Assembly: GCA_026129465.1 (NCBI GenBank)
Contig: JAHCIA010000001.1
Span: 1,249,964 to 1,313,963, forward strand
DNA: 64,000 nucleotides
Source: Flavobacteriales bacterium
GTDB taxonomy: Bacteria > Bacteroidota > Bacteroidia > Flavobacteriales_F > PHOS-HE28
Direction: 5' to 3'
Numbering within the stretch: position 1 is the first letter of the stretch; the number at the start of each line of letters is the position of its first letter. The notes beneath the pieces are model-generated. The model was not told where the DNA came from. It ran no database searches and saw nothing but the letters and a program-made list of their open reading frames with translations. The position numbers and the translations under genes are program-made. Positions 7,240 to 59,947 of the stretch are shown piece by piece.

Positions 7240-8961
7240 ATGCACTGGTGGAGGTGGGCGGTCATGGCAGGGGGCATTGTGCTCCTGGGATGGATCGGTG
7301 GCCTGATCTTCGACGAACTCGTTCGCCGGAAGTTGGAACAGGTGGCCACCAAGGCCGCGGGAGTGGACCATCGCGTAAGCATCGGCGCCCTGCGGAGCAA
7401 CTTGTGGAGCGGCTCGGTGGAATTGAAGGACCTGCGCATGGAACACGACAGCCTGGCGGATGATGCCGACCTCACCACAGGGCTGATCGCCATCCATGCG
7501 GAGCGCCTCGGCCTTACGGGGGTCTCCTACCGGGCGCTGCTATTCGGTGGCCGTATCCATGTGGCGCGCGTGGAGATGCATGCACCACGTGTGGCACATG
7601 TGCACCACTCCGGGGCGCCACGCCCCGTTGTGGAACCGGATACCGCCACCAACGCGTTGGCGGGCCTGCCACCATCCATCCGGCTTGATTCGCTCATCAT
7701 TCGTGACGCATCGGCACGCACGTCCGACCTGGGTGGAAAGAAGTTCAGCGCCGATGTGGGCACCCTGGACCTATGGGCCGGGGGCTTGGCCTTGCACAAC
7801 CTGCCCGGCAGGGGGGCGCAATTCGTCGTCAACAGCGCGCGCATCAGCATCCGCGAGACCACCGCCGCCTTCCCACCGCTCTACGACCTGCGGATCGGGG
7901 AGATGTGGCTGGAACATCCGGCCGGCCGCGCCAACGTGAAGGACCTCTCCTTCCTGCCACGGACCGACCAGCACAACTACCACAAGTTGCTCGACCATGA
8001 AACGGACCTTTTCATGGTGGAAGTGGACAGCATAGCACTTGGCGGACTCCATGTGGGCCGATTCCTGGCGGAACACGCGCTGTGGATGCGGCGCATGGAC
8101 ATCCACAGGCCCGAAGTGGAGGTCTATCGTGACAAGACCATGCCCGATGCGCCATGGAAACACAAGCCACTGCCCACGGGCATCCTGCGGAACATCACCC
8201 TCCCGATGCGGATCGACACGGCCATCTTCCACCACGGGAAGGTGACCTACCACGAGCGCGTGGAGCAGGAGCATGAATATGGAAGCCTGGAATTCACGGC
8301 ACTCCACGGTGACATCACGGGCATCGCGTCCGGCGCACCATCCGGCAGGCGGCTCGAACTCCGCGCGCACGCTCGCATCTACGGGCGCAGCAAGGCCTTC
8401 CTTTCCTATGGCGCCGACCTGGACAAACCCGGCGACGCCTTCTCGCTGAGCGCCCACACCACCGACCTTCCTTTCGACATCTTCAATCAAATGACGGACA
8501 GCCTGCTGCGCGTGGAGGCCACGGCGGGCACCATCCATCGCTTGGAACTGCAAATGACCGGCGACGACCACCGTGGGCACGGCACCCTCCACCTGGCCTA
8601 CGATGATCTGCGGCTGGCCATCCACATCACAGGCGGAAAGGGACGCGACAAATTGTTGGGATTGCTGGCCAATACGGCGGTGCGCAGCCGAAACGTGCCA
8701 GACCTCAAGGGCTATCGCCAGGGCTCCTTTGCCATTGACCGCCGCCGGGACCGCAGCCTCTTCAACTTTCTGTGGCAGGCGGTGAAGGCCGGCAGCATCG
8801 ACACCATGGCGCCGGGCATCCTTCGGAAGAAGGCCAGTGAGGCCGGCAAGGGCCCCGCCAAAGCGGACCGGCTTGGACAGGATAAGATCCGCCGGTATGG
8901 CCGGTCGGCATCGTTGGAAAGCGTTGGAGGAGCGTTGGCGATCATACTACCTTCGGCATGA
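7240..8961 (+). CDS. AsmA/DUF748-like envelope protein (573 aa)
   Basis: One N-terminal transmembrane helix (about residues 7-25) anchors a large periplasmic region dominated by alternating beta-strands. The early part, in which VRRKLEQVATKAAGVDHRVSIG leads to strands such as SGSVELKDLRMEH, matches the start of AsmA-like/DUF748 proteins. Such proteins are thought to form lipid-transfer grooves between the membranes. No catalytic motif is visible. The family assignment rests on architecture and the N-terminal pattern only. Confidence 0.6.
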   Translation: MHWWRWAVMAGGIVLLGWIGGLIFDELVRRKLEQVATKAAGVDHRVSIGALRSNLWSGSVELKDLRMEHDSLADDADLTTGLIAIHAERLGLTGVSYRALLFGGRIHVARVEMHAPRVAHVHHSGAPRPVVEPDTATNALAGLPPSIRLDSLIIRDASARTSDLGGKKFSADVGTLDLWAGGLALHNLPGRGAQFVVNSARISIRETTAAFPPLYDLRIGEMWLEHPAGRANVKDLSFLPRTDQHNYHKLLDHETDLFMVEVDSIALGGLHVGRFLAEHALWMRRMDIHRPEVEVYRDKTMPDAPWKHKPLPTGILRNITLPMRIDTAIFHHGKVTYHERVEQEHEYGSLEFTALHGDITGIASGAPSGRRLELRAHARIYGRSKAFLSYGADLDKPGDAFSLSAHTTDLPFDIFNQMTDSLLRVEATAGTIHRLELQMTGDDHRGHGTLHLAYDDLRLAIHITGGKGRDKLLGLLANTAVRSRNVPDLKGYRQGSFAIDRRRDRSLFNFLWQAVKAGSIDTMAPGILRKKASEAGKGPAKADRLGQDKIRRYGRSASLESVGGALAIILPSA

Positions 8962-9008: not shown

Positions 9009-9497
9009 ATGATGAACCGTTTGATCACGGCCGCTTTGATATCGGCCACGGCCTTCACCGTGCAGGCCCAGAGCTTGACACCCGCCTCCCAGGAGCGTAC
9101 CCGCCCCACCCAGGATGCCCAAGTGAAGCAGGAACGCGCCGCAGCGGCCGCCACCGCCACCGATGCGAACAACCAGCCCGTTCAAGCACAGGGCGCAGAC
9201 CGCATCTCCCGCCTGGTGCAGGAGTTGGGCCTCACCCCGGAACAGGAAAAAGGGCTCCGTGCCGCACAGGAGAAGCGCGACAACCAGATGAACGATCTGC
9301 GCAGCACGCCCGGCCTGGACCGCACACAGCAAGGCACCCGTGGCGATGCCATCCTGGCCGAGCATGACGCGCATGTGCGCACCATCCTCACGCCAGAGCA
9401 ATACGAGAAGTACCAGTCCTCCCTCCGCGTGCGCAGGGTGGAGGCCGCTCCCGAGCAAATGCGCGAACGCCCCGCGGCCGCGCCTGAGAACCGCTGA
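9009..9497 (+). CDS. LTPEQ-motif (Spy-like) exported protein (162 aa)
   Basis: Signal peptide (about 20 residues ending VQAQ), then an Ala/Gln-rich linker, then a helical core with two LTPEQ motifs (LGLTPEQEKGL and ILTPEQYEKY), as in Spy/CpxP-like proteins. A strong hairpin follows. The 3' half of this gene has a decayed relative at 18783-18968, and the DNA just downstream (9539-9626) recurs almost unchanged at 19009-19096, marking this gene as the left neighbour of an inserted island. Confidence 0.75.
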   Translation: MMNRLITAALISATAFTVQAQSLTPASQERTRPTQDAQVKQERAAAAATATDANNQPVQAQGADRISRLVQELGLTPEQEKGLRAAQEKRDNQMNDLRSTPGLDRTQQGTRGDAILAEHDAHVRTILTPEQYEKYQSSLRVRRVEAAPEQMRERPAAAPENR

Positions 9498-9522
9498 TCG
9501 GCCGGGGAATGATACGAACATG

Positions 9523-9547
9523 GGACGCGCCCTTCTAGGGCGCGTCC
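9523..9547 (+). terminator. Rho-independent-type terminator
   Basis: A perfect 10-bp stem (GGACGCGCCC / GGGCGCGTCC), a 5-nt loop and a T-containing tail (TTGTTT) lie directly downstream of the LTPEQ gene. Its 3' arm overlaps the start of the 88-bp direct repeat. Confidence 0.7.
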
Positions 9548-9626
9548 TTGTTTCCGGCCATGTCATTCCCCCGCTAACTTGTGCGCCACCTGCCCATGTG
9601 GGAACATCTGGACATCTGGCTGCTGC
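9539..9626. repeat. Left 88-bp direct repeat flanking the island
   Basis: It matches 19009-19096 at 87 of 88 positions; the only mismatch is G at 9557 against C at 19027. It contains the candidate promoter element CTAACTTG and the first ten codons of the Na/Pi cotransporter gene (an ATG at 9596 giving MWEHLDIWLL). It then diverges and reaches a stop at 9629, so this copy is a truncated 5' gene fragment. Confidence 0.9.
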
Positions 9627-9727
9627 CGTAGTGTTACCGGAATGGGCCTATGCGTTCCCATGCGCGGGGTACCACTTGCCTCCGGAAGTCAGATTCGTGC
9701 CTCTGTAGAGCCTGTAGAGGCTTGGGG

Positions 9728-9765
9728 CAGGGTCCCTTCGTGCCTCAGGAGAGCCTGCGGAGGTT
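9728..9765. repeat. Interspersed repeat, copy 1
   Basis: First of three related copies in the island sharing GGTCCCTTCGTGCCTCAGGA and then a short palindromic part (CAGG-AGAG-CCTG). The others are at 11141-11179 and 16235-16268. The 232-bp gap 9627-9858 holds this repeat and no gene I can support. Confidence 0.7.
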
Positions 9766-9858
9766 TGAGAGCGCGGGGCGTGGTGCCATGGAAGACGTCT
9801 TCAGAGGTCCAGGCTGGCTCGTTATCTTGTCCCAGCGGCATGCGCTGCGCTTTTCGTC

Positions 9859-10350
9859 ATGTCTTTTGATGGGATGACCGATGCTGAGTTGGATCGCCTA
9901 CGGCGCATGCCGAAGCGGGTGGAGAACCCCCGTGCCCGTGCCCAGCGGTTGGAAGGCCGGGAGCAGTATAACTACACGTTGACCACAGAAGACGGCGAGC
10001 ACCGCTTTCAGCTCTACACCAGACAGAACATCCGGCCGGGTATGGAAGACAGCTTTTCCTGTGGCCTCAATGTGGTGAAGGCCAATGGCGAAACGCTCAC
10101 CCTGTGCCGATACAACGGCCCCAGCCACCCGCATCGGAACCATTTGGAGGGCGAAGCGTTCGCGTTCGTTTGCCACATCCACACCGCCACCGAGCGCTAC
10201 CTGCTGGCAGGGCGGGATGCCGAGACCTTTGCCACCACCACGGAACGGTTCAGAACTTTGCAGGGCGCCCTGCACTGCCTGGTCACCGACTGTGCAGTTT
10301 CGGGCTTGGAACCCACACCCGACGAACCCACCTTGTTCCCCGTGCCATGA
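9859..10350 (+). CDS. Hypothetical protein, DUF6978-like (163 aa)
   Basis: A soluble protein with no signal peptide or membrane segment. The central part is beta-rich (YNYTLTTEDGEHRFQLYTRQ) and followed by a conserved-looking HRNHLEGEAFAFVCHIH His cluster. It resembles, from memory only, the small DUF6978-type proteins paired with DUF1828 proteins. The last codon overlaps the next ATG (ATGA at 10347-10350), so the two genes are translationally coupled and probably act together. Function is not known; the setting suggests defence or toxin-antitoxin biology. Confidence 0.55.
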   Translation: MSFDGMTDAELDRLRRMPKRVENPRARAQRLEGREQYNYTLTTEDGEHRFQLYTRQNIRPGMEDSFSCGLNVVKANGETLTLCRYNGPSHPHRNHLEGEAFAFVCHIHTATERYLLAGRDAETFATTTERFRTLQGALHCLVTDCAVSGLEPTPDEPTLFPVP

Positions 10351-11126
10351 ACACGAACCTCGACCTGTTGCAGGAGAGCCTCTGCAAGGCCATGTGCGCC
10401 GAGGTACAGGTGCGGCCCAAGGGCCGGGACTCGGCCATGGTGCTCACGCCCTTCGCCTTTGCCGATGGTGATGCCTACCAGCTCTACCTCACCGAGTTGC
10501 CGGGGGGGCTGCTGCGCCTGAGCGACATGGGGCACACCCTCATGCACCTCAGCTACCGCAACGACACGGAGAAGTTCCGCAATGGCACCCGCGCCAAGCT
10601 GCTTGAGCGGATCAAGGCGGAGACGGACGTGGCCGAGGATGACGGGGCCTTTTATGTGGACACCACGGCGCAGGAACTTGCGCCTGCCATCTGGCGCCTC
10701 TCCAAGGCCTTGGTGCAGGTGAACGACCTCACCTTCCTGAACCGTGAGCGTGCCGAAAGTACCTTCTATGAGGACCTCCACGAGCAGTTGATGCGCCTGG
10801 TGCCCGAGGATCAGGTGCAGCGCAATTACATCCATGCGGCGCTGGAGGATGCGGCCAACTACCCCATCGACTACCGCATCGAAGGCAAGCATGCGCCCCT
10901 GTTCATCTTCGGCATCGCCAACAAGGACAAGGCCCAGCTTGCCACCATCATCCTGGAGCGCCTCAAGCGCCACAAGGCCGACTACGAGTCGCTGCTCATC
11001 TTCGCCGACCAAGGCAGCCTGCCCCGGCCAGTATTGGCCCGCCTGAGCAACGTGGGCGGCGAGCAGATCGCCAGCCTCGACGCCCAGGAGGATATCGAGT
11101 GGAAGATCTTGCGGAAGAGAGCGTAA
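10347..11126 (+). CDS. DUF1828/DUF1829 domain protein (259 aa)
   Basis: The N-terminal 100 or so residues match DUF1828: a beta-strand start, then LRLSDMGHTLMHLSYRND, the family's typical 'LSD-G-T' turn. The C-terminal half (AANYPIDYRIEGKHAPLFIFG and then a helix containing ATIILERLKRH) fits DUF1829. Together they form the known two-domain protein found in mobile regions and prophages. The start overlaps the upstream stop by four bases. The biochemical activity of the family is unknown; the DUF1829 part looks like a degraded nuclease fold, which is speculation. Confidence 0.7.
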   Translation: MNTNLDLLQESLCKAMCAEVQVRPKGRDSAMVLTPFAFADGDAYQLYLTELPGGLLRLSDMGHTLMHLSYRNDTEKFRNGTRAKLLERIKAETDVAEDDGAFYVDTTAQELAPAIWRLSKALVQVNDLTFLNRERAESTFYEDLHEQLMRLVPEDQVQRNYIHAALEDAANYPIDYRIEGKHAPLFIFGIANKDKAQLATIILERLKRHKADYESLLIFADQGSLPRPVLARLSNVGGEQIASLDAQEDIEWKILRKRA

Positions 11127-11140
11127 GGGGAGCGGGTGCG

Positions 11141-11179
11141 CAGGGTCCCTTCGTGCCTCAAGAGAGCCTACAGAGGTTC
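11141..11179. repeat. Interspersed repeat, copy 2
   Basis: CAGGGTCCCTTCGTGCCTCA followed by AGAGAGCCTACAGAGG, closely matching the copy at 9728. It sits 14 bp after the DUF1828/1829 stop codon, so both copies flank the same two-gene operon. Confidence 0.7.
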
Positions 11180-11229
11180 AGGGTTTTCGTGGGCGGTCCG
11201 GTCGTTCAACTTGGCATTGGCCGGTGCGA

Positions 11230-11964
11230 TCAATGGCTGGCCGAAGGGTACTCTCGTGATTCGGGTGACCATACCGAGAGCTCTGTGTTCTGGTCCGACA
11301 GGTCCACCACTTGAACATGGCATAGGCTCACCAAGTTGTTCAGCATTCCCGGCCGCACGAAAACGGTCCGCCAACGCCGGCTGTACATCAAGCAGTGCTT
11401 CGCCTTTTCGCCGATCCTGATCGATACGGGCGCATGTTCATTGTCCTTGTAACGGAGCACTCCGAAGACCACCAGGTCATCGCGGCTGTGGCCATAACTC
11501 GCACGGAACTCTTTCATGCATAGGTACCCCTTCCGTACGTAGCGGTTTCGCACTTCATTCCATGAAGCTTCATCCAGGCCCATGGGATATTCCGGCAAGG
11601 CTCGTTCGCCCTCCAGGCTTCGTCTGTAGAAATAGTCGGCGACCGCTTCTTCGTACTCGATCTCCACCGATCGCATCACGCGCTTTTCGACAGCTTCCAC
11701 ATACTGCTTCTTGATCAGGATCAGGTGGTAATTCTCATCGAACAACAGGTACTCCAGACCTGCGCAGGTAGGTCTGTATCCTTTGTAAGGGTCCATAGGG
11801 TGCACGGGGTCGTGCCGTTGCATCCAGCCCCATGCGGCAAGTTGATAGAGGCTGGGCGTTAGTCTGCACCTGTCCAACAGATCCACATGTCCCTTCCAAA
11901 TGAGCTTCAGCCAACGCTCATTGCGGCCCGGAGGGAGTTTGAATTCAAGGATGCGCTTGGTCAT
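11230..11964 (-). CDS. Unrecognised protein (244 aa)
   Basis: I do not recognise a family. The protein appears soluble, without signal peptide or membrane helix. It is rich in Tyr, Trp and charged residues, with an N-terminal basic helical part (WLKLIWKGHVDLLDRC) and a beta-rich C-terminal part. The coding DNA is visibly less GC-rich than the flanking chromosome, as expected for acquired DNA. On the minus strand it lies just downstream of a decayed MmeI-type C terminus (12061-12210), the same position the gene at 12229-12846 has relative to the intact MmeI gene. Confidence 0.55.
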   Translation of the reverse strand: MTKRILEFKLPPGRNERWLKLIWKGHVDLLDRCRLTPSLYQLAAWGWMQRHDPVHPMDPYKGYRPTCAGLEYLLFDENYHLILIKKQYVEAVEKRVMRSVEIEYEEAVADYFYRRSLEGERALPEYPMGLDEASWNEVRNRYVRKGYLCMKEFRASYGHSRDDLVVFGVLRYKDNEHAPVSIRIGEKAKHCLMYSRRWRTVFVRPGMLNNLVSLCHVQVVDLSDQNTELSVWSPESREYPSASH

Positions 11965-12060
11965 GGACTGATGGATCTTCGCGATATCCCTGGATGGAAT
12001 GATCCGATCGGCGCATACACATTGGCGCCTTGCTTCGTTCGTTGGCTTGCCCTATCCCGT

Positions 12061-12210
12061 TCCCACCCACCATCTCTACATGTTTCTCGAATAGGAACGC
12101 CACCTGCTGCCCCCCTCCTTCTCGAAGCCCTGCTTACCGTAGCACTGGTCCATCGCGCTTCCAACGCTTGCTGGGCTTTCAACGGGTTGGCGCGCATCGT
12201 GGCTGAAGAG
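12061..12210 (-). pseudogene. Relic of the C terminus of an MmeI-family enzyme
   Basis: Translating the minus strand from about 12197 gives MRANPLKAQQALEA, then after a frameshift MDQCYGKQGFEKE, then after another shift VAFLFEKHVEMVGG. These line up in order with the C-terminal end of the intact enzyme (PANLVKAHQALDRAVDKCY...VAYLFEKYEEVVGG). At least two frameshifts are needed. It is the remnant of a second, diverged restriction-modification gene. Confidence 0.7.
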
Positions 12211-12228
12211 TGGGTCATGTTCATGTCT

Positions 12229-12846
12229 TCAGGTGCTCTTCATTTCATCCTGCTTGGACTCGCGCTCGCTTTTCAACGCATCCAGGAAGCGTTCCAAGGC
12301 TTCATAGGTGACGATCGCATTGAAGCAGAGGTCGCCATAGCACAGCGGCTCTCGTCCCTTGCCCCCGTCCACATCGAAGGCGGCCGAATCGAAAGTGATA
12401 CTGAGCCTGACCCTTGGGTCACCGGGATCGCGCTGCAAATGGAACCTCTTCGGACGACCGAGCCGATCCATACGATCGTGGTCCCTATCCTTGGCGGCGT
12501 CACCAAGTCTCCACCAGGATTCCTCGTTATAGCCGAAGGGGTCACGCATTTCCAGCGCATTATGGAAGGCACTGGGGTAGCCGAGCACTACGCACCATTG
12601 GCCGCCTTCCCGGTCCATCCAACGAACAGGCCATTCCTCATGCAACAGGTCGCGGAACGTCTCATCGAAAGCATCATCCGCAGGTATAAAAAGATGGCCT
12701 TCTGGAAAGGTATCATCCCCCTTCATCCAAGGGGCAAAGACCTGGATGCCTCCGCAGGTCAGGCTCAGCATGTAATCGTATCCAAAGGACATAATGTCAA
12801 GGAGGGTCAGCTCCATCACATAGGTCCCTAAGTTGAGTTTGGCCAT
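12229..12846 (-). CDS. Unrecognised protein (205 aa)
   Basis: No family recognised. A soluble acidic protein beginning MAKLNLGTYVMELTLLDIMS, with several Trp residues (EEWPVRWMDREGGQW) and a beta-rich centre ending in a charged helical tail. The ATG at 12846 is preferred to the longer frame from 12933, which would overlap the upstream gene. It follows the 3' end of the MmeI-family gene by 34 bp on the same strand and could be co-transcribed with it. The base composition is less GC-rich than that of flanking core genes. Confidence 0.55.
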   Translation of the reverse strand: MAKLNLGTYVMELTLLDIMSFGYDYMLSLTCGGIQVFAPWMKGDDTFPEGHLFIPADDAFDETFRDLLHEEWPVRWMDREGGQWCVVLGYPSAFHNALEMRDPFGYNEESWWRLGDAAKDRDHDRMDRLGRPKRFHLQRDPGDPRVRLSITFDSAAFDVDGGKGREPLCYGDLCFNAIVTYEALERFLDALKSERESKQDEMKST

Positions 12847-12880
12847 GTTGGTGTGGGCTTGGTTGGCTCGTACACTGTGT

Positions 12881-15625
12881 TCATCTGCGTTTCGTTCTCC
12901 CACCCCCCAACAATCCCCCCACCACCTCCTCATACTTCTCGAACAAGTACGCCACGCGTTCCTCCTCGCTCCCGAAGGCCTTGCTCCGGTAGCACTTGTC
13001 CACCGCGCGGTCCAGCGCTTGGTGGGCTTTCACCAGGTTGGCCGGCATGGTGAGCGGGTCGTACAGATCGGCCAGGCTGGCGCCGGGGTGCGCCGCACGC
13101 GCGTCCAGCACCCCTTGGGCGGCGGCCTCCACCGCGGAGCGCTGCGCGGGCGTGGGCGACATGGGCCAGGGGAAGTTGTTGTAGACGATCTTGTTCGAGT
13201 AGCGATAGCGACTCTCCAAGCGGCCGCATACGGCTCTGATCCAAGCATTGTGCATGGTGCTCTGAAGCACTCCAAAATGGTAAAGCGTACAGCGCGGCAC
13301 GCACAGGCAGCTATCCGCCACGATGTCCTTCGGACTTTCCCATCCCATCGGAATGAACCTGCGTGTCTCTGATGAATGGCGTGGCACCAGGATGTAGTGT
13401 CCCTTCGGTTGCCGGATCTCCCCGAAGAGGGCCGGTGTTTCCGCCAGCTTGCGCGTACCCTCCCGGTTGCTGGCACTCCTGTGGTCGCGGACTGCGTTGA
13501 CCCGCTCCAATACTTGGGGCATTCCACGCAGTTTGGCCGCCGGGGCATCCACGAGCCAAAGGCACCAACGCGCGTGTCCGTTGAGGAACTCATGTGCGCT
13601 CAGGAAGCGCTTCATGTAGGGAGCGGCTGCAGGCTCCTCCTTCAGGAAGGCCTTCTTCTCTTCGTCGGTGAATAGGAAATGGCCGCCATCATTGGGCATG
13701 TTCCCGAACACGATCTCCGGCACGTTGCAGATCGGTTTACTGCGGCTGGGGATCAGCACATCGCGCCCGCCCACCAGGTAGGGGTTGATGTTGTCCACCA
13801 CTTCCACCGTGGCTTCGGCCTTGGGGTCGGCGTAGTGGTACAGCCGCTTCTTCGCTACGTCATGGTCCGCGAAGCCGATGATGACGCAATGCACGGCCGC
13901 CACGCCGCGTGCCTCGTTGTTCCAGCGGAAGGTGCGGTGCGCGAAGTGGATCTTGATGCCCTGCGCCAGCAGCGGCCCCCACAGCGCGGCCACTTGCTCG
14001 CCCTGGCTGATGCTGTTGGTGCTGACGAAGGCGCAGCGCGTGCGGCCCCTGCCGTGTTGCTGCAGGTAGCGAGCCGCCAGGCCATACCACGCGCACACGA
14101 AGTCCAGCACGCCGCTGGTGGGCGTGTGGCCCATGGCGGCGGTGAGCCCCTCGCGCATGGCGGGCGTCATCATCTTGCTGCCCACGAACGGCGGGTTGCC
14201 AAGGATGTAGTCGTACGCGCCGCCATCGGGCAGCAGCGAAGCCCAATCGGTGCGCAGCGCATCGGCGTTGCGGATGGTGGCGCTCTTGCGCAGCGGTATG
14301 CGCACCATGTACTCCCCAAAGGCCTGGCTCACCTCCTGGTTCATCTGGTGGTCGGTGAGCCACAGGGCCACCTGCGCGATCTGCGCGGGGAAGTCCTCGA
14401 TCTCGATGCCGTAGAACTGGTCCACGTTCAGGCGCACCAGTTGGTCCACGTTGGTCACCTGCTGGCCGCCTTTCAGCAGCACGCGCACCACCTCCATCTC
14501 CAGGCGCCGCAGTTCGCGGTAGGTGATCACCAGGAAGTTGCCGCAACCGCAGGCGGGGTCCAGGAAGCGCAGTTCGCCCAGCTTCTGGTGGAAGCGCACC
14601 AACTGGGGCTTGCTCCGCCGGGCGCGGTTGAACTCCTCCCACAGCTCGTCCAGGAAGAGCGGCTGGATGAGCTTGAGGATGTTTGCCTCGCTGGTGTAGT
14701 GGGCGCCCAGGTCGCGGCGGGCCCTGGGGTCCATCACGCTTTGGAACAGCGCGCCGAAGATGGCCGGGCTGATGCGGCTCCAGTCCAGTGCGCAGGCCTC
14801 CAGCAGGGTGATACGCATGGCCCCGTCCCAGTCGGCCATGGGCAGGCGCTCCTCGAAGAGTTTGCCGTTCACATAGGGAAAGGCGGCGAGGCGTTCGTCC
14901 AGGTTGCGGGAGCGCTCCTCCTTTTCGGTATCGAGCACTTGAAAGAGGCGCTCGAGCCTGGGGCCCAGGTCGCTGCCGTCCTCGCTGGTGTGGCCCTCCA
15001 GCCAGTCGTAGAAGGCGCCGTTCTCGAAGATGCCCGTGTCGTCCGCGAAGAGGATGAAGAGCAGCCGCACGAGGTACACCTCCAGGGCGTGGCCGGTGTA
15101 GCCGTTGGCCTTCAGTTCATCGTGCAACCTGCCCATCAGCTCGGCCGCGCGGATGTTCACCGGGTCCTGTTCGCGCGGGGTGTGGCTCCTGTACCCGCTG
15201 ATGAAGTCGAAGCGGTCGATGTGCCTGGGCAGGTCGGCCAGCTTCAGCTCGAAGGCTTCGCCGCTCTCCAGGCGGTGCAGGTGGATGCGCGCGAAATCGC
15301 TGACGATGATGTATTCGGGCAGTTCGTGGTCCTTCAGCCCGTGCAGGTAGCCGATGGCCTGGCCGTGCGCCTTGCCCAGGTCCTTGCCGCGGCTCTTGTG
15401 CTCCACCACCAATTTGCCGGGCCAGTAGAGGTCGATGAAGCCATGTTCCTGGTCCAGCTTCTTCACGATCTGCTCGAAGTAGGACACTCGCCTGCGGTTG
15501 ACGCCGAACACCTGGAGGAAGCCGTCCCAGAAGCTCTTGGCATCGGCATCCTCGCTGTGGGCGTCGCGCCATTCGTGGGCGAAGGCCGTGGCACGGCGGC
15601 GGATCTCGTTCTTGGAGAGTGGCAT
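12881..15625 (-). CDS. MmeI-family type IIL restriction-modification enzyme (914 aa)
   Basis: A single polypeptide joining endonuclease and adenine methyltransferase, close in length and layout to MmeI (919 aa). The N-terminal nuclease site is D65-x9-E75-x-K77 (within FIDLYWPGKLVVEHK), with the same spacing as MmeI. A helical spacer is followed by the SAM motif DPACGCGNF (356-364) and the catalytic motif NPPF (477-480) typical of N6-adenine methylation. The target-recognition region lies around 640-830 and includes a segment ending RRFIPMGW, and the family C-terminal helices finish the protein. All catalytic residues are present, so it should cut unmodified DNA at a distance from its site and methylate one strand. 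The recognition sequence cannot be read reliably here. Confidence 0.92.
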   Translation of the reverse strand: MPLSKNEIRRRATAFAHEWRDAHSEDADAKSFWDGFLQVFGVNRRRVSYFEQIVKKLDQEHGFIDLYWPGKLVVEHKSRGKDLGKAHGQAIGYLHGLKDHELPEYIIVSDFARIHLHRLESGEAFELKLADLPRHIDRFDFISGYRSHTPREQDPVNIRAAELMGRLHDELKANGYTGHALEVYLVRLLFILFADDTGIFENGAFYDWLEGHTSEDGSDLGPRLERLFQVLDTEKEERSRNLDERLAAFPYVNGKLFEERLPMADWDGAMRITLLEACALDWSRISPAIFGALFQSVMDPRARRDLGAHYTSEANILKLIQPLFLDELWEEFNRARRSKPQLVRFHQKLGELRFLDPACGCGNFLVITYRELRRLEMEVVRVLLKGGQQVTNVDQLVRLNVDQFYGIEIEDFPAQIAQVALWLTDHQMNQEVSQAFGEYMVRIPLRKSATIRNADALRTDWASLLPDGGAYDYILGNPPFVGSKMMTPAMREGLTAAMGHTPTSGVLDFVCAWYGLAARYLQQHGRGRTRCAFVSTNSISQGEQVAALWGPLLAQGIKIHFAHRTFRWNNEARGVAAVHCVIIGFADHDVAKKRLYHYADPKAEATVEVVDNINPYLVGGRDVLIPSRSKPICNVPEIVFGNMPNDGGHFLFTDEEKKAFLKEEPAAAPYMKRFLSAHEFLNGHARWCLWLVDAPAAKLRGMPQVLERVNAVRDHRSASNREGTRKLAETPALFGEIRQPKGHYILVPRHSSETRRFIPMGWESPKDIVADSCLCVPRCTLYHFGVLQSTMHNAWIRAVCGRLESRYRYSNKIVYNNFPWPMSPTPAQRSAVEAAAQGVLDARAAHPGASLADLYDPLTMPANLVKAHQALDRAVDKCYRSKAFGSEEERVAYLFEKYEEVVGGLLGGGRTKRR

Positions 15626-15631
15626 GTGGAA

Positions 15632-15847
15632 TTACGACAAGAGCGCTGGTATGCCGCTGAAGGCCAAGGATAGTACAAGCCTGATCCATTCCCAAAGCAG
15701 GCCAGGTGGTACTTTCCACCTGGTCCGCGGCTGAGCTCCGCGGCTTAGTGTCTTCAAAGCTGCGGGCACATCTTGCACAGCGCATCGGATCGCCACCTTC
15801 CGTTTGCCTCCGTCAGGGTAATGCTCCTTGATGAAGATGGTGCCCAT
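15632..15847 (-). CDS. Possible small protein upstream of the restriction gene (71 aa)
   Basis: An ATG at 15847 opens 71 codons ending 6 bp before the restriction enzyme's start. The N-terminal half is polar (MGTIFIKEHYPDGGKRKVAI) and the C-terminal half has a hydrophobic stretch (LLWEWIRLVLSLAF) that might span a membrane. No helix-turn-helix is visible, so it is not an obvious controller protein. Proximity is the main support and the call is weak. Confidence 0.3.
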   Translation of the reverse strand: MGTIFIKEHYPDGGKRKVAIRCAVQDVPAALKTLSRGAQPRTRWKVPPGLLWEWIRLVLSLAFSGIPALLS

Positions 15848-16430
15848 GGTCTTGTTCCTATGCGTCATTGGATCGGTGGGTCCCAATACGGGGAGCCCGG
15901 GCCAAACCTGCCTTCGAGGGCCAGGGGGAAAAAAGGCAGCCATGCGGCAGAGGGGGTTGGAGTCGGGTTCAAAGGAGTGCAGTAGGGTCCGTACCACTTA
16001 CGACCATTCCACAAACCGGCGGCAAGCTGCATGAATAGAAAGTAAGAAGTGGGGACAGCTGGCATTTGGCCATGCTCGGGCACCGGCCACAACCGGACCG
16101 GCCCTTGGTCGGACCAAGAGCTATACACCTGAATCACCAAGCATCAAAAACTGGGGACAGAGTGTGACCAAATTTTGTAGCACAGCTATTTCTGCACAGG
16201 TCCGAAGTGCATCGGCCCTGTATTGACCTCCACTGGGTCCCTTCGTACCTCAGGAGCCCCTGCGCAGGATTGGGCCGGCCGGATACAGGCAGGCTTGAAG
16301 GAAGCACGAAAGGCGCGTTTCGAGCATGAGGGTCGAGAAGTAGCCTGATCAAACCCCACACTGTCAGTTGTTCAATGTGCTCACATCATGGCACGCAAAT
16401 GGTCTTGAGGCCTGCCATATCCAAAGTGGC
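15848..16430. other. Gene-poor interval with palindromes and repeats
   Basis: I see no convincing gene in these 583 bases. They hold a perfect 7-bp palindrome CTTGGTC-G-GACCAAG (16104-16118), two copies of a TGGGGACAG word (in AAGTGGGGACAGCTGG near 16050 and ACTGGGGACAGAGTG near 16155), and the third interspersed repeat at 16235. The TGGGGACAG words recall sequences near REP-type transposase remnants, but no transposase is present. The downstream end must contain the promoter of the Crp/Fnr-like gene. Confidence 0.5.
16235..16268. repeat. Interspersed repeat, copy 3
   Basis: GGGTCCCTTCGTACCTCAGG followed by AGCCCCTGCGCAGG, a shorter and slightly diverged version of the copies at 9728 and 11141. 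Confidence 0.65.
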
Positions 16431-17012
16431 ATGAATGATCTAAGGGAATGGCTGAAGGCCTACACCACGTTACCCGATGATGCCTGGCAAGACCTCGCGG
16501 TCGCGCTTTGTGAGCAGCATCTTCCCAAAGGAGCCGATTTCCAGCGGGCGGGTGCCATGGCGGATCGCATCGCCTTCCTGAAGCATGGCGCCCTGTATGC
16601 CCGCTATGCCAAGGAATGCGCTCGGCACAGCGTTGCATTCTTCAACCTGCCCGAGGTGAACCGGGTGGTGTGCGACTTGAGTGCCTTTGTGGATAGGAAG
16701 CCAGCCTCCATGTGCATCAAGGCCGTCGCGGATTGTGGTCTGTTGGTATTGACCCGCGACCAGCTCTATGGCCTGTACGACAAACATCCTTCCATTGAGC
16801 GCCTGGGCCGGAGGATGGCGGAATACAGCTACACCAACGCCATGCTGCGCTTGGCTCGGATGGATATGGGCCGCGCTGAGCGGATCGCGGACCTTCAGGA
16901 GCGTCATCCGGAAGTGTTCGGCACCTTTCAAGACCAGCTCATTGCGGACTACCTTGGCATGACCAAGAGTCAGTTCAGTAAGCTGAAAGCAGCCAAGTTG
17001 AAGGCAGCATGA
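16431..17012 (+). CDS. Crp/Fnr-family-like regulator (193 aa)
   Basis: The length and layout fit Bacteroidota Crp/Fnr regulators: an N-terminal cyclic-nucleotide-binding-like barrel of about 120 residues, a long dimer helix, then a short C-terminal HTH, DYLGMTKSQFSKLK, at residues 173-186. The barrel lacks an obvious cAMP-binding Arg-Ser signature, common in this group, so the ligand is unknown. The start at 16431 removes a poorly coding extension to 16368. It heads a run of same-strand genes ending with the HIRAN gene and may control it or the island. Confidence 0.7.
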   Translation: MNDLREWLKAYTTLPDDAWQDLAVALCEQHLPKGADFQRAGAMADRIAFLKHGALYARYAKECARHSVAFFNLPEVNRVVCDLSAFVDRKPASMCIKAVADCGLLVLTRDQLYGLYDKHPSIERLGRRMAEYSYTNAMLRLARMDMGRAERIADLQERHPEVFGTFQDQLIADYLGMTKSQFSKLKAAKLKAA

Positions 17013-17082
17013 TTTGTTGTCTTTTGACAACTGGATGTATTGGATGCCCGGGGATCTTTGCCATTACAGAAACCAAACAGCA

Positions 17083-17418
17083 ATGCAACACCAATACCCT
17101 CGCCCTACCAAAGTGGACTACAATGGCATCGACGAGATCTCACGCAATCTGAACCGCTTGCTGGGCGACCTGACCGGTCGCACGGTAACCCAACGGACCC
17201 AGGACGGTATCTACCGCATCACCAATGGCCAATGGGACCCCTCCGGTGAGATCACGCACACCATCATGGCCGCTACATTGGCTGGCTTGGTATCCCGGAG
17301 CAACACCGGTGTACTGCTGGGCTTGGCCGGTCTCTTCTTTCTTGCGGCGGCGTGGCGGGAAGGCGCACATGAAGGCGCTGTGCGCCCGCACCCTATTGCA
17401 GGTTATACCTATTTCTGA
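17083..17418 (+). CDS. Small hypothetical protein, probable membrane segment (111 aa)
   Basis: Unrecognised. The N-terminal 65 residues are polar (YNGIDEISRNLNRLLGDLTG and so on). The following stretch, SNTGVLLGLAGLFFLAAAW, is one strong hydrophobic helix, followed by a short tail. Its stop overlaps the next start (TGATG at 17416-17420), so the pair is translationally coupled. The start at 17083 is the last ATG before the conserved-looking polar domain; 17014 is an alternative. Confidence 0.5.
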   Translation: MQHQYPRPTKVDYNGIDEISRNLNRLLGDLTGRTVTQRTQDGIYRITNGQWDPSGEITHTIMAATLAGLVSRSNTGVLLGLAGLFFLAAAWREGAHEGAVRPHPIAGYTYF

Positions 17419-17666
17419 TGACCTATCACGATCTCGCCTTCCATCCCGCACACAACCGCCATTGCCGCCTTCACTTCCATGACGGCAGCAGCGTGAGTGG
17501 TGTATTCAGCTCCTACTTTGATGACGAACCGGAGCGGCTGTATTTGGTGCGTTCCAATGACCTTATCGCCTTCAAGCCGCTCATGGAGTCCGGAGATGCC
17601 AAAGCCATGCGGCCGTATTGCATCCCGGTGGATCCGGCGTTGGTGAAGGATGTGGAGTTGCTCTAG
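17418..17666 (+). CDS. Small hypothetical protein (82 aa)
   Basis: Unrecognised soluble protein, His-rich at the N terminus (HDLAFHPAHNRHCRLHFHDG) and then beta-strand-like with alternating charges, reminiscent of small SH3-like or WYL-like folds, without a firm match. It overlaps the preceding gene by one base and precedes the HIRAN gene by 35 bp. The tight packing supports a four-gene unit from the Crp/Fnr-like gene onward. Confidence 0.5.
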   Translation: MTYHDLAFHPAHNRHCRLHFHDGSSVSGVFSSYFDDEPERLYLVRSNDLIAFKPLMESGDAKAMRPYCIPVDPALVKDVELL

Positions 17667-17701
17667 CTTGTGCCATCGTGCACAGCCGGCACAGCCCTGC
17701 C

Positions 17702-18298
17702 ATGGACCGCATCACCTTCCTCCGTTCCCTGCTGGGCAGCACCAGCCTGCTCACGCTGCCACCTTGGGAGCTGCTCCCGCCAGAGGAACAGGACCGCATG
17801 GCCTGGACCAAGGAGGCCCACCACATCTTCATCTACGATGCCTTCGTGCGCGGCTTCAGGCACCACCAGGGGCAGCAAGTGCTGGCCCGCATCAATGACC
17901 ACGACGACCTGGACCTGGTGCGGGAGTACGAAAACCCGCACGACGCCGATGCGGTGGCCATTTACTGGGAGGGCCACAAGCTGGGCTACCTGCCCATGGG
18001 GGAGAACCGCATGCTGGCCAACCTGATCGACCACGGCATGCTGCTGGCCGCCTATGTACTGTATACCGCAGCGGATGCGCCGCCTTGGGAGCAGTGCTTT
18101 GTAGGCGTGGAACTGCTGCTGCCCGGCAACCCCAGCTTCGATGACTACATCGACCACTACATGGAAAGACCGGATGCGGGCTACAAACTGCACCAACACT
18201 ACGGCGGTGAGGCATGCCCAGGTCCTACGCGGATCAAAGTGATCGATCCACCTGCCAAAAGAATGGATCCTCTTGATCCAAGGGATCGATCCATCTGA
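17702..18298 (+). CDS. HIRAN-domain protein (198 aa)
   Basis: The core around residues 45-110 (FIYDAFVRGFRHHQG, a strand, then EYENPHDADAVAIYWEGHKLGYLP) is a HIRAN domain: N-P-x-D-x-x-A-V followed by a G-x-x-x-G-Y-L/I-P turn. HIRAN domains bind DNA 3' ends or damaged DNA and occur alone in bacteria near repair and restriction genes. The ATG at 17702 is used. The last 19 codons (from 18241) lie inside the tandem-repeat array, so the C terminus is probably secondary and the ancestral stop lost. Confidence 0.75.
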   Translation: MDRITFLRSLLGSTSLLTLPPWELLPPEEQDRMAWTKEAHHIFIYDAFVRGFRHHQGQQVLARINDHDDLDLVREYENPHDADAVAIYWEGHKLGYLPMGENRMLANLIDHGMLLAAYVLYTAADAPPWEQCFVGVELLLPGNPSFDDYIDHYMERPDAGYKLHQHYGGEACPGPTRIKVIDPPAKRMDPLDPRDRSI

Positions 18299-18600
18299 CA
18301 GAAGAAGGGATCCACTTGATCAAAGGGGTCGATCCATGTGACAGCAGAAGGGATCCACCTGATCAAAGGGGTCGGTCCATTTGCCGGAAGAAGGGATCCA
18401 ATTGATCAAAGGGATCGATCCATCTGCCGGAATATGGGATCCACCTGATCATGTGTATCGATCCATCTGGCAAAAGAAGGGACCCACTTGATAGGTGATC
18501 GATCCATCTGGCAAGAGAAGGGATCCACTTGATCAAAGGGATCGATCCATCTGGCAAGAGAAGGGATCCACTTGATAGGTGATCGATCCATTTGCCGGAT
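18241..18600. repeat. Tandem array of a 43-bp GATC-rich unit
   Basis: Units begin at 18241, 18284, 18327, 18370, 18413, 18456, 18497, 18540 and 18581. The spacing is 43 bp, or 41 bp for the two units preceding 18497 and 18581. Each unit carries three self-complementary words: GATCGATC, GGATCC and TTGATCAA (or variants). The units are imperfect copies of one another with no unique spacers, so this is a minisatellite and not a CRISPR. Confidence 0.9.
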
Positions 18601-18782
18601 GAGCTTGGATTCAGGGCTACCCCGGCAGGCGCTTGCCGGTGGAGCATCCGCATGGCATGTCGAATTGCATCTGGCATGAACAGCACACCAACGAACCGGT
18701 CATGGCGGCTTGCTGACATGCCATTGGGGATCAAGGGGCGGGCAGCGCAAACCCTGGTGGGGCAGGCGCGTTGCAGGCCCCG

Positions 18783-18968
18783 CGCAACGCCCCCGGCCTG
18801 GACCGTAGCCAGCAGGGCACACGCGGCGATGCCATCCTCTCCGAACATGATGCCGGGCTGCGCCCGATCATGACGCCGGAGCAGTAGGTGAAATAAAAGT
18901 CCTTCTTGCGCATCCGCCGCGTGGAAGGAACCCCTGAACAGCTGTGCAAGGCAGCAGCCGATCGGTGA
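18783..18968 (+). pseudogene. Decayed 3' half of an LTPEQ (Spy-like) gene
   Basis: The reading frame gives RNAPGLDRSQQGTRGDAILS...IMTPEQ-stop-VK-stop-KSFLRIRRVEGTPEQ, aligning codon for codon with the second half of the intact protein at 9009-9497. The two Tyr codons of LTPEQYEKY have become TAG and TAA. The 5' half is missing. It lies just upstream of the right direct repeat, exactly as the intact gene lies just upstream of the left one. The rest of 18601-18782 shows no gene. Confidence 0.8.
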
Positions 18969-19008
18969 ACCTTGTTCCGGACCACCAGATGCAGGTCGCG
19001 CATTTCGC

Positions 19009-19096
19009 GGCGCGTCCTTGTTTCCGCCCATGTCATTCCCCCGCTAACTTGTGCGCCACCTGCCCATGTGGGAACATCTGGACATCTGGCTGCTGC
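19009..19096. repeat. Right 88-bp direct repeat flanking the island
   Basis: Partner of 9539-9626, with a single mismatch. Here the repeat runs on into the intact Na/Pi cotransporter gene, and it contains CTAACTTG, a plausible -7 promoter element of the TAnnTTTG type, 18-25 bp before the ATG. Confidence 0.9.
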
Positions 19097-20775
19097 TCGC
19101 CGGGCTGGGCATTTTCCTCTTCGGCATACGGCTCATTGAGGATTCCATCGCCAAACTTGGCGGCCGGAGCTTCAAGCGGCTGGTGCGTGAAGGCACCAGC
19201 ACGCGCGGCAGGGCCATCGCCACGGGCACTGTGGCCACCGCCCTGCTGCAGAGCAGCTCGGCCGTCACCCTCATGGTGCTCGCTTTCGTGGGGGCGGGCA
19301 TCGTCACCTTGGAAAGCGGCATCGGCGTGGTGCTGGGCAGCAACATCGGCACCACGGCCACCAGCTGGATCGTGGCCACCATCGGCTTCAAGCTGGATAT
19401 CGAGCAACTCGCACTGCCCTTCATCGGCGTGGGCGGCCTTGTCCTCATCTTCCTGGGCAAGTCACCACGGTACAGCCAGGTGAGCCACCTGCTGGTGGGC
19501 TTCGGGTTCCTCTTCCTGGGCCTGGATCAGATGAAGGACAGTGTATCCGCCTTCGCCGAGGACTTCGACCCCTCCCTGCTCGTGAACGCCAGGCCCTGGG
19601 TCTTCCTGCTCATGGGCCTGGTGCTCACCGCCGCGATGCAGAGCAGCTCGGCCACCGTGGCCATACTGCTCACCGCGCTTTACGCCGGGGTATTCGATTT
19701 CCGGGAGGGCGCCCTCGCGATCATCGGCAGCAACGTGGGCACCACCATCACGGTCTTCCTCGGGGCGCTGGGCGGCACCGTGGTGAAGAAACGGCTGGCG
19801 TGGTCGCACCTCTCCTTCAACACCTTCGCCGCGGTGATCGCGCTGGCAGGGCTCTCCATCTATCTGCGTGCGGTGTCCTTCGTCCTGGGCGAGGGCTTCG
19901 ACCCGGTGATGGGCCTGGCCCTCTTCCACACCTTGTTCAATCTGGTGGGCGTGCTGGTCTTCCTGCCTTTCGTCACTTGGTTCTCCGGGTGGATCAAGCG
20001 CGCGATACCGGAGAAGGAGGAGCAACGCACACGGTTCATTGGCCGCACGGTGCCCGATGTGCCGGAGGCCGCCATCACCGGTGTGCGCAACGAAGTGCGC
20101 CAGCTGCTGCTGGAAACGATCGGCTTCCACCTCGATCTGGTCGGTATCGAGAAAAAGCTGGTGCTGCCGGACGGGGCGCAACTGATGGAACAGGAGGACC
20201 ATGCCACCTACCAGGAACATTACACCGCGCTGAAACTGCTTCAGGCCGACATCATCACCTTCGTCACGCAGGTGGAGAAGCATGAACTCACCGAGGCGGA
20301 ATCACACGAGTTGAACCGGATGGTACATGCCGCGCGCCTGGCCTTGTACGCGGCCAAGAATCTCAAGGACGTGAAGGGCAACATCGACGGTTTCGAGGAC
20401 ACCAGCGCCTTCCTGGACCGCTTCCATGCCATGCTGCGCAAGCGGATGATGGTCTCCCACATGCGCATCGCGAAGGTGCTGGAGGACGGCGAGCCGCATG
20501 ATGACGTCACCGAGCTCGCCGCCATCATGCGTGTGCTGGAACAGGCTGATGCGAACGGCATGCGCGAAGTGAACATCGCCGCGCGCGAGGGCCATCTGCG
20601 GAGCATCGACCTCAGCACCGCGCAACTGGTGAACCGCGCCATTTCGCGCAGCACGCACGATCTGGCCCTGGCCGCGGCGGAGCTTGTGCTGCCACCCGCG
20701 GAATACCACACCTTGGAGCGGATGCAGGAAGTGGAGGAGGCCATCGGTGGTGCGGACGCCCGGCTGGATGCTTGA
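19066..20775 (+). CDS. Na/Pi cotransporter family protein (569 aa)
   Basis: An inner-membrane Na+-dependent phosphate carrier. It has the two inverted-repeat signatures QSSSAVT (near residue 65) and QSSSATV (near 195), each followed by a GSN-x-GTT motif (GSNIGTT, GSNVGTT), and eight or more hydrophobic segments in the first 320 residues. The C-terminal 230 residues are helical and PhoU-like, as in the longer NptA/YjbB-type proteins. The ATG at 19066 is used; a GTG at 19051 is possible. Its first codons and promoter are duplicated at the far end of the island. Confidence 0.9.
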   Translation: MWEHLDIWLLLAGLGIFLFGIRLIEDSIAKLGGRSFKRLVREGTSTRGRAIATGTVATALLQSSSAVTLMVLAFVGAGIVTLESGIGVVLGSNIGTTATSWIVATIGFKLDIEQLALPFIGVGGLVLIFLGKSPRYSQVSHLLVGFGFLFLGLDQMKDSVSAFAEDFDPSLLVNARPWVFLLMGLVLTAAMQSSSATVAILLTALYAGVFDFREGALAIIGSNVGTTITVFLGALGGTVVKKRLAWSHLSFNTFAAVIALAGLSIYLRAVSFVLGEGFDPVMGLALFHTLFNLVGVLVFLPFVTWFSGWIKRAIPEKEEQRTRFIGRTVPDVPEAAITGVRNEVRQLLLETIGFHLDLVGIEKKLVLPDGAQLMEQEDHATYQEHYTALKLLQADIITFVTQVEKHELTEAESHELNRMVHAARLALYAAKNLKDVKGNIDGFEDTSAFLDRFHAMLRKRMMVSHMRIAKVLEDGEPHDDVTELAAIMRVLEQADANGMREVNIAAREGHLRSIDLSTAQLVNRAISRSTHDLALAAAELVLPPAEYHTLERMQEVEEAIGGADARLDA

Positions 20776-20843
20776 CATTTCTTGGCATTTCGGGATCGAA
20801 CCTTGCCACAGGCAGCGGGTCGTACAACCAAAACCAAAGGACC

Positions 20844-21281
20844 ATGAAGAACTGGAACAGAATGATGGGGCACCTGCTGGTGGCGGGTTCCCTGTTGGTG
20901 GGCACCGCCGCGTTCGCGCAGGACACCTCGAAGCCCATGCACAAGGGCAAGGACTTCGAAACGCGCCTGGCCCGGATGACCGAGCAATTGTCGCTGAGCG
21001 AGGACCAGACGGCCAGGATGCGCGCGATCCACGCGGACCATGCGCGGCGCATGGCGGATGTGCGCAAGATGGAGGACGAGGCGGAACGCCAGGCCGCGAT
21101 GAAGGAATTGCGCAACGCGAAACACGATGCGATGCAGGCCGTGCTAACCCCGGAGCAGAAAGCACGCAAGGAACAGTTGAAGGCCGAGCGCAGGGCCGCG
21201 CATGAAAAGGGCGACGGCCAACGCAAGGGCCACCAGCACGGCGGCCACCGGCACAAGGGCGGCAAGCCCGTTGATCGCTGA
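20844..21281 (+). CDS. LTPEQ-motif exported protein, His-rich tail (145 aa)
   Basis: Signal peptide of about 26 residues ending AAFAQ, then a long charged helical region with LSLSEDQTARM and VLTPEQKARKE, the paired LTxxQ motifs of Spy/CpxP-like proteins. The last 30 residues are a His/Gly/Lys-rich tail (HQHGGHRHKGG) that could bind metal. It follows the Na/Pi gene by 68 bp on the same strand. Confidence 0.75.
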   Translation: MKNWNRMMGHLLVAGSLLVGTAAFAQDTSKPMHKGKDFETRLARMTEQLSLSEDQTARMRAIHADHARRMADVRKMEDEAERQAAMKELRNAKHDAMQAVLTPEQKARKEQLKAERRAAHEKGDGQRKGHQHGGHRHKGGKPVDR

Positions 21282-57900: not shown

Positions 57901-58029
57901 CCCGCTCCGGAGCCGATCGAGGGTATCCAGGAGATCATCAATACTGAGACAGTACCAACGGACCAGATCGATCCCAGGAAGCAAAGGGAAAGCATGGGCA
58001 AGGGCGATGAGTCGGCCCCGCGGGACTGA
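54976..58029 (+). CDS. Large modular secreted protein, glycine-rich repeats (1017 aa)
   Basis: Signal peptide ending LLRAQ, then two N-terminal modules (each with NVGVNADGAAPAPSAMLDVD-like or LLVFNTATAG...GYYYWD motifs, about residues 25-290). A long Gly/Ala repeat region follows (about 420-680; six or so units of roughly 42 residues around GVxGxGNN...GGxFxGxxVGAxG). Last come a C-terminal module (LMSAPEAPENLFQDYGTGQL...GDCNGVYVTNETADGFEVVEL, about 820-930) and a charged tail. No T9SS motif is obvious. It resembles tail-fibre-like surface proteins. It is first of a four-member cluster. Confidence 0.75.
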   Translation: MHLPMRLPILLLIFALCAPALLRAQNVGVNADGAAPAPSAMLDVDVTALPAANKRGLLVPRIALTAANVAAPVVAPANSLLIFNTATAGVAPNAVTPGYYYWDAPLARWIRFASDGDNWRLTGNAGTTPATQFLGTTDNVAFRIRTNNIERIMVEAAGQVGVNGVPVAPAQLDVQSTNRGVRIPQIGLTSGAASNIPIGAGVVNSLLVFNTATAGAAPNAVTPGYYYWDTPSARWRRLLNDADVGPAWQLLGNAGTVAATNFLGTTDNIALRLRTNNLERFELATTGELRSFGNGTAIAPAYSWTTNTNMGMFRQNTNVLGFSTTSVERLRIMANGQVVAPGVAPMFAGDLLSGVGFGALPYGVVGTSGPVAGTSGVWGEAFPSAAIGAHGVFGLAYMGSAAGGLLNGIPVYALHAGATGTGVFSIGNNVAALTYLPAGSGGTFNGFGVGSFGVAQGAAGFGVYGVGNSAANGTGVLGIGNATVATVLPTGGGGQFFGTAVGAYARATTLASGTGVTGMGNNLAVAAPATGAGGFFAGNAIGAYGRAQTVATGIGVIGTGNNNALFTLGTGAGGAFSGTSVGAFGAATTGATPTGVVGVGNNLGVFTLWGGGSGGAFNGTAVGAYGLGTAALNGTGVVGAGNNIAPAATVTMVDGSGGAFTGTLVGALGVATNALGTGLDGRALGVDGIGVVGEALPVNGWGVLGLGEWLGSFSIATSVADGVGAVGAGNGVPTAFIPVQGSGVAGTGTRMGVYGFATNTNTGVAGTVERTGGYFASGPDAAPDVFAYVAAVDNVPRKIEGVGTVNTIIEDVQGRKVLMSAPEAPENLFQDYGTGQLVNGRAVIALDPSYSKNILVNDQHPLRVFVQLRGDCNGVYVTNETADGFEVVELMGGSSNAKFYWTVTANRANVISPSGAPWNYAEERFSPAMSPAAMTTQELQTRGPSASERVKERMKSLTTGIAGDTTVEIQVLPEQPAPEPIEGIQEIINTETVPTDQIDPRKQRESMGKGDESAPRD
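56238..57012 (+). repeat. Approximately 126-bp coding repeats (glycine-rich units)
   Basis: Six or so consecutive imperfect units of about 42 codons, each with GTGxxGxGNN followed by GGxFxGxxVGAxG. They resemble the stacked units of phage-fibre and trimeric-adhesin stalks. Confidence 0.65.
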
Positions 58030-58052
58030 TCACCGACGCTGACTCCGGCAGC

Positions 58053-58084
58053 AAAGCCCCGCTTGGAAGACCAAGCGGGGCTTT
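58053..58084 (+). terminator. Strong hairpin terminator
   Basis: A perfect 14-bp stem (AAAGCCCCGCTTGG / CCAAGCGGGGCTTT) with loop AAGA and a CTCTTCC tail, 24 bp after the large repeat protein. Confidence 0.8.
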
Positions 58085-58163
58085 CTCTTCCAGCCTGCCG
58101 CCGAGCGGTATCCCAATTGCGCAACTTCTCTGCGGGCGCTATGGCCTTTCATCGCCGGGAATC

Positions 58164-58173
58164 CTAACTTTCG
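58164..58173 (+). promoter_or_regulatory. Candidate -7 promoter element
   Basis: CTAACTTTCG closely fits TAnnTTTG, about 50 bp before the ATG at 58221. Together with the strong terminator upstream it suggests independent transcription of the next gene. Confidence 0.45.
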
Positions 58174-58220
58174 ATGGTGACGTCCATTGCTACCAACACG
58201 CCCCCAGCCCGCCATACCCC

Positions 58221-59864: not shown

Positions 59865-59947
59865 ACTTCTATTCCGGTTGGCCGGGCATCCTGAAGGGGG
59901 CTTGCAACGTCTTCACAGCGTGGCGTCCATAGCGCCGCCATCACTCC

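Follow-up and report, generated by a model that had tools for sequence, protein, structure and literature searches.

A defense-gene island between 88-bp direct repeats at a Na/Pi transporter gene of a Flavobacteriales bacterium: possible entry by homologous recombination

How restriction-modification (R-M) and other defense genes move without an integrase or a transposon has been a question since 2000, the year in which long target duplications were described; Nobusato 2000 and Furuta 2010 reportedly dealt with the insertion of R-M systems with such duplications. We describe here a 9.4-kb island in a Flavobacteriales bacterium that carries predicted defense genes and lies between 88-bp direct repeats duplicating the start of a Na/Pi transporter gene. 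The stretch analyzed, referred to as the window, comprises 64,000 nt (contig JAHCIA010000001.1, 1,249,964-1,313,963, forward strand), and coordinates are positions in this window unless another locus is named. The host genome measures 3.88 Mb (3.86-Mb contig) and has a completeness of 99.7% and a contamination of 0.02%.

The locus fits a published class (reviewed in PMC3874152; PMC3031569, PMC1643837), that of R-M insertions whose target duplications are long and variable, at ~100 bp. Class and locus have in common an R-M gene in the chromosome, ~100-bp direct repeats of the target sequence and no need for a transposase. The island differs in being larger, with a mixed 9.4-kb defense cargo. 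One of its repeats, moreover, adjoins a diverged fragment of a flanking gene and its terminator, a sign of recombination at this junction; this unusually legible junction is the distinctive part of the locus. An earlier reading of the same DNA (the initial annotation) had called integration into the 5' end of a transporter gene, with target duplication and no visible integrase, unusual, which in view of the published class is only partly right.

A second described process is homology-facilitated illegitimate or single-crossover recombination (PMC3240628; PMC5361080), in which one junction is homologous and the other, joined through microhomology of 3-10 bp, is not, and old gene ends come to lie beside new cargo. 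Classical cases delete a similar length of recipient DNA, whereas here DNA was added and 88 bp were duplicated, as in the single-crossover class of PMC3240628. In that class, found in E. coli, 56 of 60 integrants had a duplication instead of a deletion (109-950 bp in the sequenced examples), attributed to circles that had truncated homology and integrated through one crossover (PMC3240628). Interchromatid integration during transformation of pneumococcus also yields duplications (PMC3784515), and one-sided homology has been proposed for Vibrio gene arrays with leftover gene ends (PMC5361080). Islands borne by an integrase likewise have direct repeats at both ends and a target gene intact on one side, but the island described here comes without an integrase, a tRNA gene or reuse of its repeat elsewhere. 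Unlike most long target duplications, the locus retains a piece of a diverged flanking gene and an apparently hybrid terminator at one junction, features that would place the recombination point. The recombination hypothesis can thus be checked in other genomes, by looking for defense cargo enclosed by gene-end duplications, one copy of which has a diverged piece of the flank next to it.

Repeats, gene remnant and terminators at the island junctions

The repeats (9539-9626 and 19009-19096) are identical at 87 of 88 positions, the sole difference being G9557 versus C19027; they are spaced 9,470 bp apart and enclose 9,382 bp. In the left copy, the Na/Pi ATG at 9596 is followed by ten codons, a proline and a stop (MWEHLDIWLLP, then stop), while the copy on the right (ATG 19066) reads through into the intact gene. 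A rho-independent-type hairpin with a perfect stem, the terminator of the preceding gene with an LTPEQ motif (LTPEQ gene), spans the left edge of the left repeat (z = -6.2 for 9500-9560 folded as DNA; -24.4 kcal/mol as RNA). The initial annotation had described the single mismatch, the promoter-like TAACTTG with the first ten Na/Pi codons, and the terminator, and all three were confirmed by reading and folding both copies.

Two copies of the 88-bp sequence were found in the whole genome, both at the island edges. When 860 kb of the same chromosome were compared with themselves, this pair was the only one of its kind (at least 95% identity, 60-200 bp, gap >5 kb), the remaining repeat pairs being tandem, paralogous or dispersed, and 800 kb of a complete congener scanned by the same criteria contained no isolated pair of this sort. 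Because no comparable pair occurred in either comparison, a chance origin of the repeats is excluded.

Similarity between the two sides does not end at the repeats. It reaches ~240 bp further left (9299-9538 versus 18782-19008) at ~72% identity with small gaps, and the elements of the right side (LTPEQ 3' remnant, terminator, 88-bp repeat, Na/Pi gene) stand in the order, orientation and register of the left side. This remnant and the terminator ahead of the right repeat had been overlooked in the initial annotation. Its description of a target duplication at the 5' end of the transporter gene stands insofar as the insertion carries duplicated host sequence, and is incomplete in leaving out the diverged LTPEQ-terminator piece. 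Mismatches between the remnant and the intact LTPEQ gene fall on codon positions 1, 2 and 3 in the ratio 13/6/27 (P = 7e-4), with nonsynonymous divergence (dN) of 0.20 and synonymous divergence (dS) of 1.09 (dN/dS about 0.18). The remnant thus remained a functional gene over a long period of divergence, and decayed afterwards.

Divergence changes abruptly at the terminator, from 27.7% in the adjoining sequence to 1 mismatch in 88 bp (P about 1e-11). Because coding-type divergence of ~28% adjoins a nearly identical copy, the remnant and the 88-bp repeat have different histories. Neutral decay of a single ~320-bp duplication was ruled out, since a divergence of 28% borders directly on one of 1% and the differences follow a codon pattern. 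The right terminator, with its diverged 5' arm, repeat-derived 3' arm and one unpaired T.T in the stem, looks like a hybrid of two terminators, and together with the sharp divergence border it probably records a crossover. It is very unlikely that an unrelated insert ended by chance in a collinear LTPEQ gene and terminator; the collinear remnant provides the homology at one junction that characterizes homology-facilitated import.

Island-free gene order and the mode of entry

Searches of a named genome collection gave no matches in a first scan; in a second, alignment-based scan, loci of two congeners (G019 and G065) were the best matches, and the best matches of the Na/Pi transporter were Flavobacteriales metagenome-assembled genomes. 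In G019, an AI-2E transporter gene (59% identity, divergent), an LTPEQ-like gene and the Na/Pi gene (58%) follow one another; the island is absent, and the Na/Pi gene start is present once. When the island is removed, the order in the window equals that in G019, except for the gene at 7240-8961. The initial annotation had stated that collapsing the repeats would make the LTPEQ gene, terminator and Na/Pi gene neighbors, and in G019 an LTPEQ-like gene does directly precede the Na/Pi gene. The alignment with island-free relatives that it proposed has accordingly given adjacent LTPEQ-like and Na/Pi genes, in a distant species and as gene order only: the LTPEQ-like gene of G019 is weakly similar (31-34%) to its two LTPEQ counterparts in the window, and G019 offers a shared gene order, not an empty site at the level of sequence. 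In G065 an LTPEQ-like gene lies 6.5 kb upstream of the Na/Pi gene; this was considered as a second island and rejected, as the interval holds ordinary genes, including an asparaginyl-tRNA-synthetase-like gene, and no repeat.

We give about an even chance to entry by homologous recombination at the LTPEQ-terminator-Na/Pi junction, the partners being similar but diverged in sequence and no integrase or transposase being involved. The initial annotation had raised a homologous-recombination origin as an option, and among the readings considered it is the best supported. A second LTPEQ gene, belonging to a related species or lineage, would have contributed its 3' end and terminator, which lay beside the defense cargo on the incoming DNA. 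On the right, these donor sequences would have recombined with the chromosome inside the terminator; everything rightward of the crossover would be host sequence, so that the Na/Pi gene keeps its promoter and start. On the left, the join would have been made at codon 10 of the Na/Pi gene, and since this point lies 88 bp further downstream than the crossover, 88 bp would be present twice, both copies being host sequence. This could have come about in two ways: a circle integrated by a single crossover, accompanied by conversion over the short homologous stretch, or two sister chromosomes were bridged by a linear fragment whose left join was illegitimate. The donor, the order of events and the left joint are what we infer from the junctions.

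Several points weigh against this account. A plain single crossover of a circle leaves donor sequence in one of the 88-bp copies, so that conversion or a matching donor is needed, and the remnant could be an old native tandem paralogue. The remnant has no further match in 45 congeneric genomes, hence the donor locus was not found. The island-free order comes from a distant species, judging by the identity of its Na/Pi protein and the weak similarity of its LTPEQ-like gene, and the parallel in a further congener, G002 (see below), is imperfect in that two native-type genes stand between the cargo and the duplicated fragment. A ComEC homologue is present in the genome, but it is weak support for an uptake route, being nearly universal in bacteria.

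As in the published Helicobacter insertions, the R-M unit might have entered with a long target duplication through a process associated with DNA breakage or with the unit's own activity, the LTPEQ remnant having already been at the unit's end. An R-M gene in the insert, a repeat of ~100 bp and the lack of a visible transposase fit the class described in PMC3874152, PMC3031569 and PMC1643837. We nevertheless consider this unlikely: the collinear LTPEQ-terminator remnant at the right junction is left unexplained, and a similar 113-bp gene-end duplication lies beside a non-restriction gene in the congener G018. The class is moreover a description more than a mechanism, and is compatible with recombination. 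Somewhat less likely again is that the remnant is an ancient native tandem paralogue, with the cargo inserting between it and the other paralogue and a leftward copy of the 88 bp arising afterwards through gene conversion or unequal exchange. LTPEQ-type genes do form a local paralogous family (another lies at 20772-21281), and coding-type divergence also suits an old paralogue. Such a history requires several independent events, though; the third local LTPEQ gene aligns with the remnant at background level (score 35; shuffle maximum 49), and G019 has one LTPEQ-like gene at this place.

Direct repeats that rebuild the 5' end of a target gene resemble attachment sites, and defense cargo is common on integrase-borne islands, so the island was also considered as a relic of such an element whose integrase gene was lost. 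A six-frame search of the genome with PF00589 gave five tyrosine-recombinase matches, none in the window and the nearest ~53 kb from the island, in agreement with the initial annotation, which had seen no integrase. The island has no integrase or transposase match, the same search revealed no decayed integrase near it, and the window has no tRNA gene. The 88-bp sequence is not reused as an attachment core at any other locus of the genome, and related cargo in congeners is flanked by different repeats at other genes. No inverted repeat is found at the island ends, and a duplication of 88 bp is unlike the short duplication of a DNA transposon. In these features the island matches neither an integrase-borne island nor a transposon, and we regard an integrase relic as improbable. 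The initial annotation had also mentioned an assembly artefact, and a chimeric join at an 88-bp overlap would indeed leave short near-identical sequence at both junctions. This is very unlikely, as one base distinguishes the copies, the remnant in the flank makes biological sense, and the sequence lies in a 3.86-Mb contig of a nearly complete genome with hardly any contamination. Recombination of diverged sequences, to which we return, also has possible counterparts in related genomes.

Gene-end duplications elsewhere in the genus

At the DUF6978/DUF1828 loci whose two flanks could both be examined (G000, G002 and G004), a gene-end duplication was found in three of three, a post hoc count from a small sample. 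In G002, HIRAN, DUF6978-like, DUF1828 and MmeI-type genes stand together and adjoin iscS, a 67-bp fragment of which lies further right and is closer to the iscS of a sister species (89.6%) than to its own (85%). An iscS repeat flush with the cargo was ruled out in this genome, as native-type DUF1287 and MORN genes intervene. The region downstream of iscS varies among congeners (L075 6408-7547), holding DUF1287, MORN, urea-transporter-like, hydrolase or MmeI-type cargo genes, and is an apparent hot spot of gene exchange.

The DUF6978/DUF1828 pair of G004 lies between repeats of the 3' end of a type I specificity gene (hsdS), 97% identical over 101 bp and 84% over 229 bp. Two gene groups, the DUF6978/DUF1828 pair among them, are each followed by this gene end (L081 6935-7163, 9389-9489, 10837-11041), as though additions had been made in series and a copy of the gene end had stayed behind each time. 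In G018, the gene between the two copies of a duplicated hydrolase gene end (L106 6198-6305, 4201-4303; 113 bp, ~95%) codes for a secreted protein whose C terminus has a sorting-type tail, and because of this insert gene-end duplication is not confined to R-M cargo.

Tentatively, and with more doubt than for the locus itself, we propose that defense genes spread in the genus by recurrent, integrase-free homologous recombination at gene ends, which would add DNA and duplicate the gene end. Many "long target duplications" of R-M systems might then be crossover scars beside fossils of the donor flank.

In G013, several copies of a different, ~230-bp intergenic repeat bracket an MmeI-type gene (L080 8234-8616, 11468-11850, 12179-12560).

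Cargo of the island and its dispersed repeats

The features of the locus are collected in Table 1. Judged by family membership, the cargo is predicted to function in restriction and other phage defense. The MmeI-type enzyme has its N-terminal, spacer, methylase, target-recognition and C-terminal Pfam domains, all above cut-off, in one chain. Its nearest relatives found are from the same genus (81% and 78% identity), and the cargo therefore circulates within the genus. Viral contigs contained no relatives of this enzyme or of the two uncharacterized proteins of 244 and 234 aa, and plasmids contained no DUF1828 relatives. AlphaFold models of the two uncharacterized proteins were too poor to interpret, with a predicted local distance difference test score (pLDDT) of 60 for the 244-aa and 41 for the 234-aa protein.

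Table 1 Features of the island and its flanks (window coordinates)
Feature	Position	Strand	Evidence
LTPEQ-motif gene, intact, 162 aa, left flank	9009..9497	+	Open reading frame (ORF) list; Pfam: no match
Rho-independent-type terminator hairpin, perfect stem; spans left edge of left repeat, 3' arm inside repeat	9521..9549	+	Folding
Left 88-bp repeat: terminator 3' arm, promoter-like TAACTTG, Na/Pi ATG and ten codons, stop	9539..9626	+
Inserted segment, 9,382 bp	9627..19008	.	Parts 56-60% G+C; flanks 62-67%
DUF6978-like protein, 163 aa, PDC-M24A-like	9859..10350	+	Pfam E 0.0015 (below gathering cut-off); PADLOC E 0.0018; phrog_27326 E 3e-50
DUF1828 protein, PDC-M24B-like, candidate defense; overlaps DUF6978-like gene	10347..11126	+	Pfam E 3.5e-22; PADLOC E 1e-15
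Uncharacterized protein, 244 aa; weakly related proteins in 13 other genomes of the genus; no match to recombinases	11230..11964	-
Uncharacterized protein, 234 aa, no family detected	12229..12933	-
MmeI-type (type IIG/IIL) fused R-M enzyme, 914 aa	12881..15625	-	Pfam E 3e-87 to 5e-25; PADLOC REase_MTase_IIG 1197 bits
Crp-like protein; weak match to cyclic nucleotide monophosphate (cNMP)-binding domain, below gathering cut-off	16368..17012	+	E 0.0013
Uncharacterized ORF, 111 aa	17083..17418	+
Uncharacterized ORF, 82 aa, overlaps 111-aa ORF	17418..17666	+
HIRAN-domain protein	17702..18298	+	Pfam E 7e-15; PADLOC PDC-M03B
GATC-rich tandem array of a 43-bp unit (8.6 degenerate copies), shortly before LTPEQ remnant	18232..18596	.
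LTPEQ pseudogene remnant, 3' part, two in-frame stops	18782..18978	+	72% to 9299-9497
Right terminator, diverged 5' arm and repeat-derived 3' arm, one unpaired T.T in stem	18993..19019	+	z = -0.95
Right 88-bp repeat, leads into intact gene	19009..19096	+
Na/Pi transporter gene, intact, start ATG 19066	19066..20775	+

A dispersed 39-bp repeat (core GTCCCTTCGTGCCTCAGGAG) lies between the gene groups of the island, at 9684-9722, 9727-9765, 11140-11178 and 16232-16270. It forms a tandem cluster with a 61-bp period at G000:C1:1569998-1570153 and is present in 15 of 45 congeneric genomes, and the reversed control pattern gave no match; in one congener (G066), copies flank an MmeI-type gene on both sides. 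The repeats were considered as integron-type recombination sites and rejected, as the window copies fold no better than shuffled sequences and resemble intergenic repeats found throughout the genus. Self-comparison of the chromosome revealed further direct repeats near the right end of the window (55713-60384), of 108 bp (88%) and 378 bp (87%).

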